Shown here piece by piece: positions 1,352 to 38,761 of a stretch of 54,818 nucleotides of DNA. The notes under the pieces are model-generated. The model was not told the DNA's origin. It did not search any database and worked only from the letters and a program-made list of their open reading frames with translations. Origin of the DNA: Treponema sp. (GTDB lineage: Bacteria > Spirochaetota > Spirochaetia > Treponematales > Treponemataceae); the NCBI GenBank assembly GCA_024696155.1, contig JAILHD010000034.1:1-54818 (forward strand), read 5' to 3'. How positions within the stretch are numbered: the stretch's first letter is position 1; every line of letters starts with the position of its first letter. The translations under genes and the position numbers were made by a program.

Positions 1352-3106
1352 ATGTGTGGCTTTGTAGGAGCATTTGATTTATCTAGTGGCGGTCAGCCTA
1401 TTGCGGAAGGTTTAAAAGAAGAGTTGCGCTCGCAGGTTCTGGAGATGTCTAAAAGAATCAGACATCGCGGACCGGATTGGAGCGGTGTTTATACTGGTGA
1501 GAATGCCATTTTGAGTCATGAACGACTTTCTATTGTTGACCCGCTTTCTGGAAAACAGCCTCTTGTAAGCGATGATGAAAAAATTATTCTTGCGGCAAAC
1601 GGCGAAATTTACAATCACAAGGAAATCAGAAGTTCTTTTGAAGGAAAATATAATTTCCGTACAGGTTCTGATTGCGAAGTTATCATTCCTTTGTACAAAA
1701 AATATCGCGAAAGCGGAAATTTTTCAGAAATGATAGAGCATCTTTCCGGTATTTTTGCCTTTGCACTTTACGATAGTGAAAATGACGTTTACCTTATTGC
1801 CCGCGACGAAATTGGAGTTATTCCACTTTATCAGGGCTGGGATAAGGCTGGCCGCTACTATGTAGCCAGCGAACTTAAAGCCCTCGAAGGCGACTGCCAG
1901 ACAATAGAAGAATTTCCTAATGGTCACTATCTTTATTCCAGGGACGAAAAAGCAACCCGCTGGTACAACCGCGCCTGGGAATCTTACGATGCTGTAAAAT
2001 CTGCCCCACGTGCCACAGACGAGCACGGCGAAGTAATCAATCCTTCGGTTATCGAAAAAGTTCGCAACGGTTTGGAAGCTGCCGTAAAAGCTCAGCTTAT
2101 GTCTGATGTTCCATACGGTGTATTACTTTCCGGAGGTCTGGACTCTTCAATCATAGCTGCCATCACACAAAAATACAGCAAAAAACGTGTTGAGTCAGAC
2201 AGCCGAGAATCTGCCTGGTGGCCACAGCTCCACTCATTTGCAGTCGGCCTTGAAGGCTCTCCAGATCTGATTGCCGCAAAAAAAGCCGCAGACTACATCG
2301 GCACTGTTCACCACGAAGTTCACTTTACAATTCAGGAAGCTCTGGACGCCCTGCCTGACGTAATCTACCACATCGAAACTTACGATATCACAACTGTCCG
2401 AGCCTCAACTCCAATGTACCTGCTTGCCCGAGTAATTAAATCTATGGGAATTAAGATGGTTTTGAGCGGCGAGGGCAGTGACGAGCTTTTCGGCGGTTAC
2501 CTCTACTTCCATAAAGCTCCAAATGCTCAGGAATTTCACGAGGAACTCGTTCGCAAAATGAGCAAGCTTCACCTTTACGACTGCCTCCGTGCCAACAAAT
2601 CCCTTATGGCTTGGGGCGTAGAAGGCCGCGTTCCTTTCCTTGATAAAGATTTCATCGATATTGCAATGGGACTAAATCCGAGCGACAAAATGAACATTAA
2701 ACTGCCGGATGGCAAACAGCGCATGGAAAAATGGATTCTCCGCAAAGCCTTTGAAGATATGCTTCCTGAAAACATCTGCTGGCGCCAGAAGGAACAGTTC
2801 TCTGACGGTGTAGGCTACAACTGGATTGATACTCTTAAAAAGATGACAGAAGAGAAGGTAAGTGACGCAGAATTTGCCCGCCGCGAAAACCGATTCCCTG
2901 TAAATCCTCCAAAAACAAAGGAAGAATACTACTACCGCGAAATTTACAGCCGCCTTTTCCCAAGCGATTCAGCTGCCCGTTGTGTTCCGCATGAAGCTGG
3001 AGTTGCCTGTTCAACTGCAAAAGCTCTTGAGTGGGATGCTGCATGGAAGAACATGGATGAACCTAGTGGGCGTGCGATTGCTGGTGTTCACGACAAGGCA
3101 TACTAA
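1352..3106 (+). CDS. asnB: Asparagine synthase (glutamine-hydrolysing)
   Basis: 584 aa; MCGFVGAFD N-terminal Cys amidotransferase, RHRGPDWSG, LSGGLDSSIIAA PP-loop. Confidence 0.97.
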   Translation: MCGFVGAFDLSSGGQPIAEGLKEELRSQVLEMSKRIRHRGPDWSGVYTGENAILSHERLSIVDPLSGKQPLVSDDEKIILAANGEIYNHKEIRSSFEGKYNFRTGSDCEVIIPLYKKYRESGNFSEMIEHLSGIFAFALYDSENDVYLIARDEIGVIPLYQGWDKAGRYYVASELKALEGDCQTIEEFPNGHYLYSRDEKATRWYNRAWESYDAVKSAPRATDEHGEVINPSVIEKVRNGLEAAVKAQLMSDVPYGVLLSGGLDSSIIAAITQKYSKKRVESDSRESAWWPQLHSFAVGLEGSPDLIAAKKAADYIGTVHHEVHFTIQEALDALPDVIYHIETYDITTVRASTPMYLLARVIKSMGIKMVLSGEGSDELFGGYLYFHKAPNAQEFHEELVRKMSKLHLYDCLRANKSLMAWGVEGRVPFLDKDFIDIAMGLNPSDKMNIKLPDGKQRMEKWILRKAFEDMLPENICWRQKEQFSDGVGYNWIDTLKKMTEEKVSDAEFARRENRFPVNPPKTKEEYYYREIYSRLFPSDSAARCVPHEAGVACSTAKALEWDAAWKNMDEPSGRAIAGVHDKAY

Positions 3107-4580: not shown

Positions 4581-5989
4581 TATAAAATTTCTTTGATTTT
4601 TTTCATTATTTTGTCGAGTTTATTTATATCAATGCTCGAATAATTCAAAATAAACTGATGCTTGTCTTGTCGCTCTTCGCCCATTTCAAAATCTGTGATT
4701 GAACTTATAAGAATTTTATTTTCTTTTAAGCGTTCTTTAAATTCCTGATCGCTGAGCTTTGTGTTGAACTCAAGAATAAAATGAAGACCTGAATTATTTT
4801 CTATAATTCTGCATTCGTTTTCTGAAAAATGTCGTTTTATCAGTTCAATTATTCTGGCGCGCTTTCGACCGTAGTGAAGGCGCATTCGGTTTATGTGCTT
4901 TTCAAAAAATCCCTGACTTATAAAGGCTGCCAGTGTGTACTGCTCAAATGTAGAAACGGTGCATGAATAAAAAGAAAGTTTTTTATAAAAATCCTGCGCA
5001 AGTTTTTCTGGCAAAATCATATAGCTGATTCGGATTGTAGAGGTAAGCGATTTCGAAAAAGTATTCATATAAATAACTTTTCCAAATACGTCCATACTGA
5101 ATAGAGGAGGAACAGGTTTTCCTTTCTGCCGGAATTCGCTGTCGTAATCATCTTCTATAATATAATTTGCTTCGCTTTCGTTAGACCAGGCAAGCATCTC
5201 ATAGCGACGGCTTGCAAGCATACAGATTCCTGTTGGAAAGTGATGGGTAGGGCTTATATGTGCAACCTGCCCGCCTGCAGCACGAAGTTTTTCAACAGAA
5301 AGTCCCTGTTCATCCATTTCTACAGGAATACAGGTGGCGTTGTTGTTTTCGTAAATTTTTTTAAGTTTTTTATAGCCTGGATTTTCTATGCAGTAGTTTT
5401 TGTCGTTTCCTAAAAGTTTAATCAAAAGTCCGTAAAGATATTCGGTTCCTGCTCCAACTATAATCTGGTCGGGATTTACGCTCATTCCGCGGAAAGATTC
5501 CAGATGATTTGCAATTGCTTCTCTAAGTTCTTGAACGCCGCTACACGGAGAAACTTCCAGAAGTTCCTTTTCTTTTTGAGAGATTGTTTCTCTTAAGATT
5601 TTTGCCCAGATTGAAAACGGAAAGTTTGTTTTTTCAATTCGATTTGAAGAAAAGTCAAAATAATCCTCGTTTTTTTCAGCTGGTTCCGGCGGTAAAAGAT
5701 TTTTGTAAGCAGCTTTTGGAACTGATTTTGTTTTAATGCGGACAATGTTTTCTATTTCTGAAACAAAATATCCGCGCTTTGGCAGGGAATAAATATAGCC
5801 TTCACTCATCAGCTGGTCGTAAGCGCCTTCTACAGAAATAATGCTTATTCCAAGATTTCTTGCAAGTGAGCGTTTTGAAGGCAGTTTTTCGTTTGCCTTC
5901 AACTTTCCCGTCTGAATATCTTCCAGAATAAACTGATAAAGCGTTTTATAAATCGGACCATTTGATTCTGACAGATTGTAGCTTAACAT
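4580..5989 (-). CDS. MocR/PdxR-type GntR regulator with aminotransferase-like domain
   Basis: 469 aa; N-terminal wHTH (LPSKRSLARNLGISIISVEGAYDQLMSEGYIYSLPKRGYFV) plus fold-I aminotransferase domain (EDDYDSEFR, FSKSL). Confidence 0.92.
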   Translation of the reverse strand: MLSYNLSESNGPIYKTLYQFILEDIQTGKLKANEKLPSKRSLARNLGISIISVEGAYDQLMSEGYIYSLPKRGYFVSEIENIVRIKTKSVPKAAYKNLLPPEPAEKNEDYFDFSSNRIEKTNFPFSIWAKILRETISQKEKELLEVSPCSGVQELREAIANHLESFRGMSVNPDQIIVGAGTEYLYGLLIKLLGNDKNYCIENPGYKKLKKIYENNNATCIPVEMDEQGLSVEKLRAAGGQVAHISPTHHFPTGICMLASRRYEMLAWSNESEANYIIEDDYDSEFRQKGKPVPPLFSMDVFGKVIYMNTFSKSLTSTIRISYMILPEKLAQDFYKKLSFYSCTVSTFEQYTLAAFISQGFFEKHINRMRLHYGRKRARIIELIKRHFSENECRIIENNSGLHFILEFNTKLSDQEFKERLKENKILISSITDFEMGEERQDKHQFILNYSSIDINKLDKIMKKIKEIL

Positions 5990-6066
5990 TTTTTCCCTTT
6001 GAAAATCTTTATATCACATTTTTAAGGTGGTGGAAACAGTTTTAATAAGTCAATTTTCAAAAATAC

Positions 6067-6096
6067 TTGACTTATTCTAAAGTAATTCAGTATTAT
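6067..6096 (+). promoter_or_regulatory. Sigma70-like promoter TTGACT-N18-TATTAT for the gltB leader
   Basis: -35 6067-6072, -10 6091-6096, predicted start ~6103 just before ACGGCAAAGAGG. Confidence 0.65.
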
Positions 6097-6107
6097 TTAA
6101 GAAAATT

Positions 6108-6181
6108 ACGGCAAAGAGGTCGTAGATAATAGTCTTAGGGAAAATTTGTCCCTGGGGGTATTATCTACGACCTCTTTTTTT
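6108..6181 (+). ncRNA. Structured leader / sRNA candidate with intrinsic terminator (copy 2, upstream of gltB)
   Basis: Perfect AAAGAGGTCGTAGATAAT/ATTATCTACGACCTCTTT stem plus T-tract, ending ~14 nt before the gltB ATG. Confidence 0.65.
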
Positions 6182-6195
6182 ATTTGAGGTAAAGA

Positions 6196-9100
6196 ATGAA
6201 GACACTGTATGAACCATCGTTTGAGCATGACGCCTGCGGTATTGGGGCTGTTGTGAATATTGACGGAAGCAAGTCGCATAAAATTGTAGATAATGCGCTG
6301 AGCATTGTTGAAAAACTTGAACACCGTGCGGGTAAAGACGCCAGCGGAAAAACTGGTGATGGTGTTGGAATACTTTTACAGATTAGCCATGACTTTTTTA
6401 AGAAAGCTGCTGCAGATTTTGTAGGAAATCTTGGTGAACGTGATTACGGTATTGCTCAGATTTTCTTTCCTGGAAATGAAGATGAATGCAACTCAGAAAA
6501 AACTGATTTTGAAAAGGCTGTAAAAGAGGGTGGCTTAAAACTTCTTGGCTGGCGTCAGGTTCCTGTAGACGCTGCCGTTCTTGGACAAAAAGCCCGTGAC
6601 TGTATGCCAAATATCAGGCAGGCTTTTATTGCCCGTCCAGAAAAATGCGAAAAAGGTCTTGAATTTGATAAACTTCTTTATAAGGTACGTCTTTCTTTTG
6701 AAAAAAAAGATAATCACAAAACATACATCTGTTCATTTAGCAGCCGAACAATTGTTTACAAGGGAATGTTCCTAGTTCACGAGCTCAGAACCTTCTACAA
6801 AGATTTGCAGTCACCTGAATATGTTTCGGCACTTGCACTTGTTCACTCACGCTTTTCTACAAACACAAATCCAAGCTGGCAGCGTGCTCATCCAAACCGC
6901 TTTATAGCTCATAACGGAGAAATCAATACAATCCGCGGAAATGTAGACCGAATGCTTGCCCGCGACGGCGAAGTTGATACAACTGGTTCTGACTCTGCAA
7001 TGCTGGACAATACTCTTGAATATTTTGTAATGAACGGAATGCCTCTTCCTCTTGCAGTTATGATTTGTATTCCAGAGCCTTGGAAGCATGATGATAGTCT
7101 TAGTCAGGAAAAACGGGATTTCTATCACTATTGGGCAACAATGATGGAACCTTGGGACGGTCCTGCTGCAATTCTCTACAGCGATGGTGATGTTCTTGGT
7201 GCCACTTTGGACCGCAACGGTCTTCGCCCAAGCCGTTATTTTATTACAAAAGACAATATGCTGGTTCTTTCTAGTGAAGTTGGTGTTCTTGATATTCCTG
7301 AAAGCCAGATTGTAGAAAAATCACGCCTTATGCCTGGACGCATGCTTCTTGTTGATACAACACAGAAACGACTTATTACAGATAAGGAGCTTAAAGAAAC
7401 TTACGCCACAAAAAATCCTTATGGCGAATGGCTGGATCTGAATCTTACTCATCTTGCAGACCTTAAAATTCCTAATAAAAAAATCCCTGTAAGTACACAG
7501 GAAGAGCGAAATCGTCTTTACCGTGCCTTTGCATGGAACTACGAAGACCTTAACGAAATGGTTCTTCCAATGGCTCGTAACGGCGTGGAGCCTACAGGTG
7601 CAATGGGTGTTGATACACCGCTTGCCTGTCTTTCAGACAAGCATCCTCCTCTTTACAGCTATTTTAAGCAGCTTTTTGCTCAGGTTACAAACCCTCCAAT
7701 CGATAGTCTTCGCGAAAAAATTGTAACAGATACAACAGTTTATGTTGGTACAGACGGTGACCTTCTTCATACAAAAGGTTCAAACTGCCGTGTGCTCGAA
7801 ATTAACAATCCGATTTTGACGGGAACTGACCTTGTAAAAATTGCCGCATTGAATCAGCCTGGTTTACGTGCTACAACTCTTTCGCTTTTGATGGATATGG
7901 AAAAGCTTAATCTTGAATCTGCTTTGGAAAATCTCTTTAAGCAGATTGATGCTGTTTACTCTGAAGGCTACAATATTATTATCCTTAGCGATCGTGGAGT
8001 TGACGAAAAGCATGCTGCAATTCCATCTCTGCTTGCTGTAAGTGCCGTTGAGCAGTATCTTATCCGCACAAAAAAGCGTACAAAGATTTCTATTATCCTT
8101 GAAAGTGCTGAAGTGCGTGATGTTCATCAGGCTGCAATGTGTATGGGTTATGGTGCCCGTGCAATTAATCCTTACCTTGCACATGAATCAATCGCAGAAC
8201 TTATTGATCAGAAACTTCTGGACAAGGATTATCACACTGCAATTGACGATTATAATAAGGCAATTATCGGCGGTATTGTAAAAATCGCTGCAAAAATGGG
8301 AATTTCTGCCGTTCAGTCTTATCAATCTGCCCAAATTTTTGAAGCAGTTGGTATTGCTCAGGACGTTGTCGAAAAGTACTTTACAAATACAGTCAGCCGC
8401 GTTGGTGGTATTGGTCTAAAAGAAATAGAAGAAGATATTCTATATCATCATAAACAGGCCTGGAATGATATGGGACTTACAGTTAATACTCACCTTGACA
8501 GTGTGGGCTTTCATAAGTTCCGCCGCGGTCCTAATGCAGAAGATCATCTTTATAATCCAGAAACTATTATTGCCCTTCAGGAGGCAACCCGTAACGGTGA
8601 CTACTCTCGCTTTAAGGAATATACAGCCCTTGTTGATGATAATTCCCGCCCTCACACTCTGCGTGCAATGCTTGATTTTGATTTTGAAAAAGCCGGAAAG
8701 GGCATTTCAATTGACGAAGTTGAAGGCGTAGATTCAATCGTACAGCGCTTTAAGACAGGTGCCATGTCTTATGGTTCAATTTCTGAAGAAGCTCATAAGT
8801 GTATGGCTGCCGCAATGAATCACCTTCACGGAAAATCAAACTCTGGTGAAGGTGGAGAAAAGCCTGAGCGTCTTGGAACGGAATATAACTCTGCAATCAA
8901 GCAGGTTGCTTCCGGCCGCTTTGGTGTTACAGAAGAATATCTTTTGAGTGCCCGCGAGATTCAGATTAAAATGGCCCAGGGAGCAAAGCCTGGTGAAGGA
9001 GGCCACTTACCTGGCAAAAAAGTTTACCCTTGGATTGCAAAAACACGTTATGCAACTCCAGGTGTATCTTTGATTTCGCCACCACCTCACCACGATATTT

Positions 9101-10662
9101 ATTCTATCGAAGACCTTGCTCAGCTTATTTATGATTTGAAAAATGCAAACCGCGCTGCCAGAATCAGCGTAAAGCTTGTAAGTGAAGCAGGTGTAGGTAC
9201 AATTGCTGCCGGTGTTGCAAAAGCCGGTGCACAGGTAATTTTGATTTCCGGTCATGATGGTGGTACTGGTGCTGCACCAATTTCTTCTATTCATCATGCG
9301 GGACTTCCATGGGAACTTGGCCTTTCTGAGGCTCATCAGACTTTGATTCAAAACGGACTTCGCGGTCGTGTAATTATTGAAACTGACGGTAAACTTATGA
9401 GCGGCCGTGATGTTGCAATTGCCTGTCTTTTGGGTGCAGAGGAGTTTGGTTTTGCTACAGCGCCTCTTATTACAATGGGTTGTGCAATGATGCGTGTCTG
9501 CAATCTTGATACCTGTCCATTTGGTGTTGCAACTCAGAATGAAAAACTTCGCGAACGCTTCCCTGGAAAGCCTGAATACGTAGAAAACTTTATGAAGTTT
9601 ATTGCCCAGGAACTTCGCGAATATATGGCAAAACTTGGAGTTCGTTCTATTGATGAAATGTGCGGACGAACAGATCTTCTTAAGATGAAGGAAAAGCAGG
9701 GCTTTAAGCGTGCCGGTCTTATTGATTTGTCTCGCGTACTTGCCGGTGGCGAAAACGAAGGCTGGAAAAAGACCCGCGATACATTCAACTTCGAACTTGA
9801 AAAGAAACTTGACCTTACAAGACTGGTGCCAGACTTTGAAAACTCTAAGGCTTCGGCAGAAGTAGACATTCAGTCTACAGACCGCACCTTTGGTACTATT
9901 CTTGGCAGCGAAATCCAGAAGAAATTCGGTGGAAAACTTGAAGATGATGCTTACGTTGTAAAATGCCGCGGTGGAGCGGGACAGAGCTTTGGTGCCTTTA
10001 TTCCAAAAGGACTTACAATCCGTCTTACAGGAGATGCAAACGATGCCTTTGGTAAAGGCTTGAGCGGTGGAAAACTTGTTGTTACAAAGCCTGCTGATTT
10101 TGAAGGTCAGGCAGACAGCAACATTATTGTAGGAAACGTTGCATTGTTTGGTGCTACAAGCGGTAATGCCTATATCAACGGTGTTGCAGGCGAGCGTTTC
10201 TGTGTCCGTAATTCCGGGGCTATAGTTGTTGCTGAAGGTTGCGGTGATCACGGTCTTGAATACATGACTGGTGGAACTGCCGTAATTCTTGGAGGCACTG
10301 GACGCAATTTGTGTGCCGGTATGAGTGGTGGAGTTGCTTACATTCTTGATGAAAAGCACGACCTTTACAAACGTCTTAATCACGAACTTGTAAAAAGCTA
10401 TGACCTTGATGATGAGATTTCTACTCTGCGCGGAACAAGTGATCAGGAACGTCTTCGCAGTCTTATTGAAGAACACGCAAAAGAAACAGGTTCTCAAAAG
10501 GCAAAAGCAATTCTTTCTGACTGGGAACATTACAAGACCTGCTTTAAGAAGATTATCCCTAATGATTATCTGAAGATTATGACAGGAATTGCCAGCGAAG
10601 AGTCTAAAGGTCTTGCTCATGATGATGCAGTTCTTGCAGCCTTTAAGAAGGCGACTGCATAA
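6196..10662 (+). CDS. gltB: Glutamate synthase large subunit
   Basis: 1488 aa; HDACGIGAVVNIDG amidotransferase start, GMSGGVAYILDE C-terminal GXGXG domain. Confidence 0.97.
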   Translation: MKTLYEPSFEHDACGIGAVVNIDGSKSHKIVDNALSIVEKLEHRAGKDASGKTGDGVGILLQISHDFFKKAAADFVGNLGERDYGIAQIFFPGNEDECNSEKTDFEKAVKEGGLKLLGWRQVPVDAAVLGQKARDCMPNIRQAFIARPEKCEKGLEFDKLLYKVRLSFEKKDNHKTYICSFSSRTIVYKGMFLVHELRTFYKDLQSPEYVSALALVHSRFSTNTNPSWQRAHPNRFIAHNGEINTIRGNVDRMLARDGEVDTTGSDSAMLDNTLEYFVMNGMPLPLAVMICIPEPWKHDDSLSQEKRDFYHYWATMMEPWDGPAAILYSDGDVLGATLDRNGLRPSRYFITKDNMLVLSSEVGVLDIPESQIVEKSRLMPGRMLLVDTTQKRLITDKELKETYATKNPYGEWLDLNLTHLADLKIPNKKIPVSTQEERNRLYRAFAWNYEDLNEMVLPMARNGVEPTGAMGVDTPLACLSDKHPPLYSYFKQLFAQVTNPPIDSLREKIVTDTTVYVGTDGDLLHTKGSNCRVLEINNPILTGTDLVKIAALNQPGLRATTLSLLMDMEKLNLESALENLFKQIDAVYSEGYNIIILSDRGVDEKHAAIPSLLAVSAVEQYLIRTKKRTKISIILESAEVRDVHQAAMCMGYGARAINPYLAHESIAELIDQKLLDKDYHTAIDDYNKAIIGGIVKIAAKMGISAVQSYQSAQIFEAVGIAQDVVEKYFTNTVSRVGGIGLKEIEEDILYHHKQAWNDMGLTVNTHLDSVGFHKFRRGPNAEDHLYNPETIIALQEATRNGDYSRFKEYTALVDDNSRPHTLRAMLDFDFEKAGKGISIDEVEGVDSIVQRFKTGAMSYGSISEEAHKCMAAAMNHLHGKSNSGEGGEKPERLGTEYNSAIKQVASGRFGVTEEYLLSAREIQIKMAQGAKPGEGGHLPGKKVYPWIAKTRYATPGVSLISPPPHHDIYSIEDLAQLIYDLKNANRAARISVKLVSEAGVGTIAAGVAKAGAQVILISGHDGGTGAAPISSIHHAGLPWELGLSEAHQTLIQNGLRGRVIIETDGKLMSGRDVAIACLLGAEEFGFATAPLITMGCAMMRVCNLDTCPFGVATQNEKLRERFPGKPEYVENFMKFIAQELREYMAKLGVRSIDEMCGRTDLLKMKEKQGFKRAGLIDLSRVLAGGENEGWKKTRDTFNFELEKKLDLTRLVPDFENSKASAEVDIQSTDRTFGTILGSEIQKKFGGKLEDDAYVVKCRGGAGQSFGAFIPKGLTIRLTGDANDAFGKGLSGGKLVVTKPADFEGQADSNIIVGNVALFGATSGNAYINGVAGERFCVRNSGAIVVAEGCGDHGLEYMTGGTAVILGGTGRNLCAGMSGGVAYILDEKHDLYKRLNHELVKSYDLDDEISTLRGTSDQERLRSLIEEHAKETGSQKAKAILSDWEHYKTCFKKIIPNDYLKIMTGIASEESKGLAHDDAVLAAFKKATA

Positions 10663-10663
10663 G

Positions 10664-10742
10664 CGGGGCGTTGCGGGGTGTCCCCGCAGAAGGGGTAGCC
10701 CGCAACAGGGTGCGGGCGCAGGGGAAGGCTTTCCCCTCCTTA
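10664..10742. repeat. GC-rich multi-hairpin intergenic element between gltB and gltD
   Basis: GCGGGGTGTCCCCGC, GCCCGCAACAGGGTGCGGGC, GGGGAAGGCTTTCCCC palindromes in an AT-rich genome. Confidence 0.55.
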
Positions 10743-10763
10743 AAACATCATAGGAGAATTAAT

Positions 10764-12359
10764 ATGGGTAAACCAACTGGATTTATGGATTATAAAAGAA
10801 TTGAAAACGGAAGTTTTGAGCCGCTTGAGCGTATAAAGAATTTTAAGGAGTTTCATCCTGTAATGGAGGATGCTAAGCGACGTGAACAGGCAGCCCGCTG
10901 TATGAACTGTGGTGTGCCGATGTGTCAATCGGCAATCCGTCTTGCCGGCATGGTAACAGGTTGTCCACTTCATAATTATATTCCGGAATGGAACGACGCG
11001 CTTTTTAAAGGTCAGTATGATATGGCGGCCTGGAGACTTTTAAAAACTTCAAGTTTTCCGGAATTTACAGGAAGGGTTTGCCCGGCTCTTTGCGAAAAGG
11101 CCTGCAACTGCGGAAATCCTGTGTGTGGTGATGGAGCCGTTACAGTTCACGAAAATGAGCTTTATATTATAGAAAAAGCTTTTGAATCAGGTTACATGAA
11201 GCCTGAAATTCCTGCGGTTCGAAGCGGAAAAAAGATTGCCGTAATTGGTGCGGGGCCTGCAGGCCTTGCTGCTGCAGACTGGCTTAATCGCCGCGGTCAC
11301 AGCGTTACAGTTTACGAGCGCGAAGATAAGGCCGGCGGACTTTTGATGTACGGTATTCCTAACATGAAGCTGGACAAAAAAATTGTTGAACGCCGAATTT
11401 CCTTGATGAAGGCTGAAGGCGTTGAGTTTGTATTCAATGCCGATGTAGGAAAAAATATTTCTGCAGAGCATATTTTACGCCAGTTTGATGCTGTTGCCCT
11501 CTGCTGTGGTGCAAAAAAAGCCCGCTCTCTTACTTCTTCTGGTATTTCCGAACTAAAATCCGAGCGGGAAGGAGCTGCCGGCGGAATGATGTTCGCTGTA
11601 GATTTTCTTAAAGCTGTTACAAAATGTGTAATTGCAACAACCGGCGCCCTTGAAAAAATCGGAATTAATCCTGCAAACAAACAGATTGACCAGATGCTGC
11701 TTCAGGATTTTGGAATTGAAGTTGAAGGAAAACATGTTGTGATTGTAGGTGGTGGTGATACTGGTAATGACTGCTGCGGAACTTCAATTCGTCTTGGTGC
11801 TGCAAGCGTTACTCAGATAGAAATGATGCCTTGCCCTCCAAAAGAGCGTGCTGCAAATAACCCATGGCCACAGTGGCCAAAAGTGCTCAAAACTGATTAC
11901 GGTGCAGAAGAATCAATTGCGGTTTTCGGTCACGATCCTCGCGTTTATGAAACAACTGTAAAAGAAGTAATCAGTAAAGACGGTCATATTACAGCCGTTC
12001 GCACTGTTGAAGTTGAATTTAAAAATATTGATGGAAAGCGCCAGCTTGTAGAACGCCAGGGAACAGAAAAAACACTTCCTTGTGATTTGCTTCTGGTTGC
12101 CGCAGGTTTTACCGGTTGTGAAGAATATACAGCACAGTCCTTTGGTGTTGAACTTGGTCCCCGCGGAACAGTTGCAACTGCGCTTACTGAAGGAGATCAG
12201 AAAATTGAAACTTCTTTCAGTTCAGATACAGGTTATGCCACATCAGTTTCTAAGGTTTTTGCAGCCGGCGACATGCACCGCGGACAGTCTCTTGTAGTCT
12301 GGGCCATTGCCGAAGGCCGCGAATGCGCCCAGGAAATAGATGCATTTTTATTGAAATAG
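10764..12359 (+). CDS. gltD: Glutamate synthase small subunit
   Basis: MGKPTGFMDYKRIENG start with upstream AGGAGAA; AARCMNCGVPMCQ Fe-S and GAGPAGLAAADWLNRRGHSVTVYE FAD motifs. The ORF-track start at 10671 reads through the GC-rich element. Confidence 0.96.
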   Translation: MGKPTGFMDYKRIENGSFEPLERIKNFKEFHPVMEDAKRREQAARCMNCGVPMCQSAIRLAGMVTGCPLHNYIPEWNDALFKGQYDMAAWRLLKTSSFPEFTGRVCPALCEKACNCGNPVCGDGAVTVHENELYIIEKAFESGYMKPEIPAVRSGKKIAVIGAGPAGLAAADWLNRRGHSVTVYEREDKAGGLLMYGIPNMKLDKKIVERRISLMKAEGVEFVFNADVGKNISAEHILRQFDAVALCCGAKKARSLTSSGISELKSEREGAAGGMMFAVDFLKAVTKCVIATTGALEKIGINPANKQIDQMLLQDFGIEVEGKHVVIVGGGDTGNDCCGTSIRLGAASVTQIEMMPCPPKERAANNPWPQWPKVLKTDYGAEESIAVFGHDPRVYETTVKEVISKDGHITAVRTVEVEFKNIDGKRQLVERQGTEKTLPCDLLLVAAGFTGCEEYTAQSFGVELGPRGTVATALTEGDQKIETSFSSDTGYATSVSKVFAAGDMHRGQSLVVWAIAEGRECAQEIDAFLLK

Positions 12360-38060: not shown

Positions 38061-38132
38061 AGCGGAAAACGGGAGTTGGACCCGCGACATCCACCTTGGC
38101 AAGGTGGCGCTCTACCACTGAGCTATTTCCGC
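38061..38132 (-). tRNA. tRNA-Gly(GCC) copy 1
   Basis: Minus GCGGAAATAGCTCAGTGG..CACCTTGCCAAGGTG..GTTTTCCGC. Confidence 0.95.
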
Positions 38133-38167
38133 AAAGCTTTATGCGTTTTCAGGTCTCTGAAAAGTAG

Positions 38168-38239
38168 AGCGGAAAACGGGAGTCGGACCCGCGACATCCA
38201 CCTTGGCAAGGTGGCGCTCTACCACTGAGCTATTTCCGC
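38168..38239 (-). tRNA. tRNA-Gly(GCC) copy 2
   Basis: Near-identical to copy 1, one base different in the T arm (gagttgg vs gagtcgg). Confidence 0.95.
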
Positions 38240-38275
38240 AAGATTATTTCCTTTGCAATGTCCAGGAAAGACAAT

Positions 38276-38355
38276 TGCGAGAGGAGGGACTTGAACCCTC
38301 ACGCCGAAGCACTAGATCCTAAGTCTAGCGTGTATGCCAATTTCACCACTCTCGC
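38276..38355 (-). tRNA. tRNA-Leu(TAG)
   Basis: Class II tRNA with variable arm; loop CTTAGGA. Confidence 0.92.
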
Positions 38356-38382
38356 GTGATTTTTAAGGCCAAGCCTTCTTTA

Positions 38383-38455
38383 TGAGCGACCGGGGGATCG
38401 AACCCCGGACCCACAGATTAAGAGTCTGTTGCTCTACCAGCTGAGCTAGTCGCCC
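38383..38455 (-). tRNA. tRNA-Lys(CTT)
   Basis: GGGCGACTAGCTCAG..CAGACTCTTAATCTG..GGTTCGATCCCCC. Confidence 0.93.
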
Positions 38456-38559
38456 GAAGTGATTAGTAATATAACAAATCAGCGCATTTTGTTCAAGGGG
38501 TTGAATCTTGATTTTTCAAAAATTGTTGATTTTTTTTTACAGCGTTACAACCGCTGTTC

Positions 38560-38634
38560 TGCGTCTGAGAGGACTTGAACCTCCTACCTTCGGTTTCGAA
38601 GACCGACGCTCTGATCCAGATGAGCTACAGGCGC
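38560..38634 (-). tRNA. tRNA-Arg(TCG)
   Basis: GCGCCTGTAGCTCATCTGG..TCGGTCTTCGAAACCGA..GGTTCAAGTCCTC; one C-A mismatch in the acceptor stem. Confidence 0.88.
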
Positions 38635-38646
38635 ATTGCAGAAAAA

Positions 38647-38688
38647 TCTGCTTAAAAAAAAACGAACAGATTAAGCTGTTCGTTTTAG
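38647..38688 (-). terminator. Terminator after tRNA-His
   Basis: AAAACGAACAGCTTAATCTGTTCGTTTTTTTTT on minus. Confidence 0.7.
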
Positions 38689-38761
38689 GGTGCCTAGTCG
38701 GGATCGAACCGACGACAACCAGATCCACAATCTGGCGCTCTACCGCTGAACTATAGGCACC
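38689..38761 (-). tRNA. tRNA-His(GTG)
   Basis: GGTGCCTATAGTTCAG..CCAGATTGTGGATCTGG..GGTTCGATCCCGACTAGGCACC. Confidence 0.93.

Follow-up and report, generated by a model that had tools for sequence, protein, structure and literature searches.

How gltB, the gene for the large subunit of glutamate synthase, can be expressed in this Treponema genome is the question raised by its leader, in which a promoter-like site is followed by a strong intrinsic terminator that ends 14 nt before the start codon. A sequence-only reading of the locus had argued that gltB would need read-through or antitermination, and had offered protein-mediated antitermination, an alternative pairing of the leader's 5' end, or an independent sRNA as the options. 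The analysis reported here supports the need for antitermination and brings the first two options together, in that the 5' end (ACGGC) pairs with GTCGT in an ANTAR-type hexaloop hairpin in competition with the terminator, and an ANTAR gene is present in the genome. On these sequence grounds, the gltB (gltBD) leader is very probably an ANTAR (NitR-like) transcription attenuator/antiterminator working via a single start-proximal hexaloop.

Layout of the gltB and asnB leaders

The window (the whole stretch of DNA analysed, 54,818 nt) is contig 11 of a 2.4-Mb draft Treponema genome that is 86% complete. Two of its leaders carry the element:

1087-1092 and 1110-1115, + strand: asnB promoter-like twin, TTGTCA, N17, TAATAT (sequence, promoter score)
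1123-1138, + strand: putative asnB antiterminator hairpin, ACGGC-AAAGAG-GTCGT (sequence, folding)
1128-1189, + strand: asnB terminator, apical stem different yet paired (sequence, folding)
1352-3106, + strand: asnB, asparagine synthase B (NF006949)
6067-6072 and 6091-6096, + strand: candidate gltB promoter, -35 TTGACT, 18-nt spacer, -10 TATTAT (consensus scan)
6108-6123, + strand: putative gltB antiterminator hairpin, ACGGC-AAAGAG-GTCGT (pairing, folding, covariation, A1/G4 conservation)
6113-6181, + strand: gltB intrinsic terminator (sequence, folding energy, stepwise fold)
6186-6190, + strand: gltB ribosome-binding site GAGGT (sequence)
6196-10662, + strand: gltB, glutamate synthase large subunit (NF008730, 1568 bits against a cut-off of 1047)
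10671-12359, + strand: gltD, glutamate synthase small subunit (TIGR01317)

The promoter-like site at 6067-6096 is sigma-70-like, matching 10 of 12 consensus bases, and would drive gltB from a start expected at about 6103-6104; a consensus scan of the + strand from 5950 to 6250 listed no further promoter-like site. Since gltD begins 8 nt behind gltB, both genes are presumably carried on one transcript. The coordinates previously assigned to promoter, terminator and the 14-nt gap between T run and gltB ATG (6196) were right, and RNA from 6102 to 6200 folds at -45.3 kcal/mol compared with -18.65 kcal/mol for shuffled sequences (z -8.0, with 0/200 shuffles as low). The motif ACGGCAAAGAGGTCGTAGATAAT in the gltB leader begins at 6108, and its asnB twin spans 1123-1189, where the apical stem does differ from that of gltB while keeping its pairing, as had been noted from the sequence.

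Two neighboring features were also observed in the window. A gene for a MocR/PdxR-like aminotransferase-fused regulator (NF052282; 4580-5989, - strand) is divergent from gltB, with a promoter-like site of its own (5975-6003) in the shared intergenic region, and six tRNA genes are clustered at 38061-38760 on the - strand.

Two mutually exclusive folds

The gltB hairpin pairs ACGGC (6108-6112) with GTCGT (6119-6123) in a 5-bp stem, or 6 bp when U6107-A6124 is counted, around the hexaloop AAAGAG (6113-6118), with A1 at 6113, G4 at 6116 and a closing pair C6112-G6119. By sequence, a C:G-closed hexaloop carrying A1 and G4 is the hallmark of RNAs bound by ANTAR antiterminators, and all three features are shared with the EutV motif (PMC3369931) and the NasR SELEX consensus (PMC7496416).

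The terminator has a lower stem of 6113-6131/6159-6177, an apical stem of 6133-6141/6149-6157 and a T run at 6175-6181. The 5' strand of the hairpin, ACGGC, lies outside it, and the hexaloop together with the 3' strand forms the terminator base; thus, antiterminator and terminator folds are mutually exclusive. In stepwise folding of the growing gltB RNA, the ACGGC/GTCGT hairpin became the lowest-energy structure once nt 6122 was reached and stayed so until at least nt 6162; the terminator fold was dominant by 6172.

Conservation and covariation of the element

The pattern CGGCAAAGAGG...CCTCTTTT was found in 23/148 relatives, every one of the same genus, compared with 1 match for the reversed control pattern. 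R1, a covariance model built without ACGGC and tuned to the window's stem sequence, found copies in 132/196 same-genus genomes. Rfam, at gathering and relaxed thresholds, gave no above-threshold match at the element, and sub-threshold matches were mostly to miRNA hairpin families.

A census of 89 distinct gltB leaders of the genus, picked by gene, showed a hairpin with a 6-nt loop on the terminator 5' arm in 59/89, with A1 in 56 and G4 in 58 of those 59. Leaders with an A1/G4 hexaloop thus numbered 56/89, against an average of 0.6 for shuffles and 2 for reverse complements. Loops of 8 nt were common in the hairpin-length survey of gltB leaders, and we think that these are 6-nt loops with the closing pair opened.

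A second set comprised 123 oriented elements chosen from fetched loci by the terminator alone, leaving the upstream 5-mer outside the selection. That 5-mer paired at 5/5 positions in 95 elements and at 4/5 or more in 115, whereas 5-mers slid upstream as a control paired 5/5 in 0.7% and at least 4/5 in 8%. This set is partly biased, many loci having been fetched via a CGGC-containing pattern; the gltB census is free of such bias.

Among 56 distinct hairpins, two-sided changes occurred at all 5 pairs, with 89 double-change cells compared with 24.7 in shuffles (0/500 as high), and slid controls scored far lower. Stem variants include ACGGC/GTCGT, GCATC/GATGC, CAAGC/GCTTG, TGAAC/GTTCA and CGAAC/GTTTG, yet A1 and G4 persist across these unrelated stems, and the closing C:G is present in 54/56 distinct elements. 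The covariation set was preselected for pairing and A1/G4, but only about 1% of such matches are expected by chance; given the low shuffle rate in the A1/G4 count, preselection can explain the covariation only to a limited extent.

An ANTAR protein encoded behind glnA

The ANTAR domain (PF03861) was found in 51/98 relatives, which without exception belong to the same genus, and was absent from the other genera that were sampled in the order; within the genus, 172/200 genomes have an ANTAR gene. In the genome studied here, the domain lies on contig 113 (G000:C113:2672-2830, E 1.5e-16), in a gene behind a truncated pyrG and glnA (order pyrG-glnA-ANTAR). The protein has sequence matches to Rv1626, EutV, AmiR and NasR, and the best matches of its predicted structure (pLDDT 91.9) are Rv1626, EutV, RNA-bound EutV (6ww6, TM 0.73) and AmiR.

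Its receiver-like domain keeps the Asp (D56 in A2) and is, we infer, a pseudo-receiver, because TKD or SNT stands where the acidic pair of receivers is expected. Seven RNA contacts of EutV (PMC8934654) were mapped onto the protein via sequence alignment, with chain numbering 2 above that of the publication: Met172 is kept, Lys143, Lys147 and Arg177 are replaced by Arg, Arg and Lys, and R168, N173 and R175 are changed non-conservatively to E, D and S. Clostridia contain ANTAR relatives at 32-41% identity. Two ANTAR subtypes were seen in the genus, one SVLLVTKD-type (L187-L199) and one VLIVSNT-type (L044); stems of the window type accompany the former, and the latter often occurs with other stems.

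The element and the ANTAR gene tend to occur together. In hand-tabulated genomes at least 90% complete, an R1 match (E up to 1e-6) was present in 39/50 genomes with ANTAR and 1/13 without (Fisher p 5e-6), although this is not an independent test, since gltB is also missing from several ANTAR-negative genomes. The one genome without ANTAR that has an R1 match at this threshold (G034) has a plain terminator and no hexaloop stem, and ANTAR-negative G007 and G013 have weaker R1 matches that look real. Seven draft genomes (G072, G208, G157, G066, G043, G075 and G231) have the element and no detected ANTAR gene, a class in which gene loss and assembly gaps cannot be separated.

A putative glutamine and ammonia regulon

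Beyond the window, the element was found at further sites in the same genome:

contig 115: element before a 486-aa glutamine synthetase (NCBIfam match to the general GlnA model)
contig 53 (L380:870-1000): two tandem elements before the ammonium transporter gene amt
contig 75 (L381:1496-1600): leader of a GlnQ-like ABC ATPase, 5' stem of only 3 bp

By our reading of its sequence, the 486-aa glutamine synthetase is type-III-like. The second loop of the amt leader, GATGAG, has no A1, and the GlnQ-like ABC ATPase leader may respond more weakly or not at all. The pyrG leader of this genome falls beyond the contig end, and an AAAGGC-type leader pattern gave 0 matches in the genome.

Relatives carry the element before gltB, asnB, purF, glnA, pyrG, gltD and glnN, with dapF, carA, carB, amt and an O-acetylhomoserine sulfhydrylase gene as further targets, and in Clostridia it precedes gdhA and asnA. 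Nearly all of these putative targets produce or consume glutamine or ammonia. In T. bryantii B25, whose ANTAR gene is at L208:5001-5564, the element lies directly before glnA-ANTAR, so the regulator is likely autoregulated; the same order is seen in T. porcinum ATCC BAA-908. In T. porcinum, serial terminators with one hexaloop hairpin each (L242:7521 and 7585) precede a type-III-like glutamine synthetase gene.

One hexaloop or two

Described ANTAR leaders have a dual-hairpin motif, and the single-hexaloop design proposed here differs from it, with novelty judged on the open-licence literature accessible for this work. In Enterococcus faecalis, induction is lost when hairpin P1 is deleted (PMC3369931) and linker length is critical (PMC8934654), and NasR binds a single hairpin at about 12 uM compared with about 1 uM for two, about 12-fold more weakly (PMC7496416); one hexaloop might therefore work poorly. 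Walshe et al. (2022), from crystal and binding data, described a single hexaloop as the minimal ANTAR site, with contacts extending into the three base pairs next to the loop, and urged that single-hexaloop sites in genomes be studied both by bioinformatics and by experiment (PMC8934654). The hairpin at 6108-6123 fits this minimal definition, having a short stem, a hexaloop and G4. Relative to the dual definition of Ramesh et al. (2012), the gltB/asnB element lacks the tandem hexaloops with a short linker; the gltB element has the other sequence features of that definition, namely, the A1/G4 hexaloop, C:G closing, terminator overlap and an ANTAR gene in the genome.

Alternatively, the leaders could be ANTAR controlled in the classical dual mode, the partner being the terminator apical stem, a tandem copy of the element or a weak hairpin farther upstream. 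The finding of Ramesh et al. that both hairpins are essential (PMC3369931), the tandem A1/G4 elements in 10/89 gltB leaders and an apical GAC-ANNANT-GTC hairpin that recurs in glnA/pyrG leaders all favor such an arrangement. Against it, the gltB and asnB leaders of the window contain a single A1/G4 hexaloop each, apical loops vary in size and sequence, and the recurring apical loop has A instead of G at position 4. The search for a second A/G hexaloop inside the terminator was unconvincing (20/181 elements compared with 13.6 shuffled), and an additional one upstream occurred at the chance rate (15/181 compared with 12.75), on which count an upstream P1 hairpin was rejected.

Promoter position also bears on this alternative. 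Promoter scores of 229 elements averaged 11.1, compared with 5.2 for shuffled sequences, and in most of them 6 to 11 nt separate the end of the best promoter's -10 box from the base of the stem (mode 7; mean distance, 9 nt). With the -10 box so near the stem, transcription would start at or a few nucleotides before it, leaving no space for P1. We consider the dual mode unlikely. By comparison, natural ANTAR antitermination via a single start-proximal hexaloop is probably standard in gut Treponema and in the glnA-linked ANTAR systems of Clostridia, where it would control a genome-wide glutamine/ammonia regulon (gltB, gltD, asnB, purF, pyrG, carA, carB, glnA, glnN and amt), and P1 would be no general requirement.

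The recurring GAC-ANNANT-GTC hairpin lies inside the terminator of glnA/pyrG leaders (L231:1730, L234:1927, L208:3713 and others), has a 6-nt loop in which positions 1 and 4 are both A, and is absent from the gltB and asnB leaders of the window; it is possibly a second, altered hexaloop. At the Clostridial ANTAR loci L247, L249, L253, L256, L259, L261 and L279, a single A1/G4 hexaloop follows a TTGACA/TATAAT-like promoter, and the single-hexaloop design may accordingly be widespread.

Explanations without an ANTAR protein

Constitutive attenuation, in which the terminator reduces the output of gltB and asnB in constant proportion and the 5' hairpin is accidental, is very improbable, because the ACGGC strand, although outside the terminator, still pairs in 115 of the 123 terminator-chosen elements and covaries, and because the loop retains A1 and G4 over unrelated stems. 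Less probable still is that the locus encodes a separate ~75-nt sRNA acting in trans, with the gltB promoter elsewhere downstream. A terminated RNA of ~75 nt is expected, as it would be under any attenuation model, where such a leader RNA would be a by-product, making the sRNA option superfluous; moreover, the gap between T run and ATG is only 14 nt, the scanned + strand interval offers no other promoter-like site, and elements lie directly before many different nitrogen genes with variable apical sequence. Finally, a DNA operator or mobile repeat, suggested by the nearly perfect palindrome of the outer arms and the several copies per genome, is the least credible reading and was rejected on strand asymmetry and covariation, given that the U run and 5' ACGGC are one-sided, the reverse reading pairs mostly at 0-2/5 positions, and RNA fold and loop are kept while arm sequence changes.

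Proposed mechanism and relation to known ANTAR systems

An ANTAR-controlled antiterminator with a single hexaloop would operate as follows. RNA polymerase would start about 4 to 5 nt before ACGGC, making ACGGC-AAAGAG-GTCGT the first hairpin able to form. The NitR-like pseudo-receiver ANTAR protein from the gene behind glnA, which is probably active when nitrogen or glutamine is scarce, would in its active state bind the A1/G4 hexaloop and hold the hairpin, so that the terminator base would be unavailable and polymerase would read into gltBD. When the protein is inactive, the longer terminator would displace the hairpin, and a short RNA with its 3' end near 6181 would be released. A single 5'-terminal hexaloop would be enough, unlike in the targets of EutV, NasR and AmiR. 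That shortage of nitrogen activates the protein is what we expect from the example of NitR of Clostridium saccharobutylicum, which PMC6316151, citing Stutz et al. 2007, describes as an ANTAR antiterminator of GS/GOGAT genes responding to nitrogen limitation.

As with NitR, so far as that text describes it, an ANTAR protein is tied here to glutamine synthetase and glutamate synthase genes: it is linked to glnA, and the element is present in gltB, gltD, glnA and glnN leaders. The NitR host belongs to a different phylum, but the Clostridial relatives examined carry the same single-hexaloop leader. Like the EutV/eut leaders of E. faecalis, the Treponema system combines an A1/G4 hexaloop overlapping the terminator base, a receiver-like ANTAR protein and nitrogen genes. 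EutV targets differ in having P1 and P2, with P1 deletion or a longer linker abolishing antitermination, compared with one 5'-end hexaloop here; EutV is also phosphorylated by EutW, whereas the Treponema receiver keeps the Asp without the usual acidic pair at its start. NasR of Klebsiella oxytoca shares the C:G closing, A1, G4 and attenuation of nitrogen genes; unlike the Treponema system, it carries a NIT domain, responds to nitrate and relies on two hairpins (PMC7496416). AmiR of Pseudomonas (1qo0) is a receiver-like ANTAR protein whose fold resembles the one predicted here, but it is complexed with AmiC, and the amidase leader has two hairpins (PMC3369931).

In its accessible text, a 2012 survey placed ANTAR leaders in Actinobacteria, Bacteroidetes, Firmicutes and Proteobacteria, with spirochaetes not among them (PMC3369936), and a search of open-licence papers for ANTAR and spirochaetes returned no relevant match, only Antarctic and unrelated papers. 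The leaders described here suggest a route for the control of nitrogen assimilation in gut spirochaetes. They also bear on the discrepancy between the single-hexaloop site of Walshe et al. and E. faecalis genetics, in which both hairpins are essential, by providing many natural single-hexaloop terminators with clean covariation. Because such elements occur in the cultured strains T. bryantii B25 and T. porcinum ATCC BAA-908, the single-hexaloop question is directly testable.
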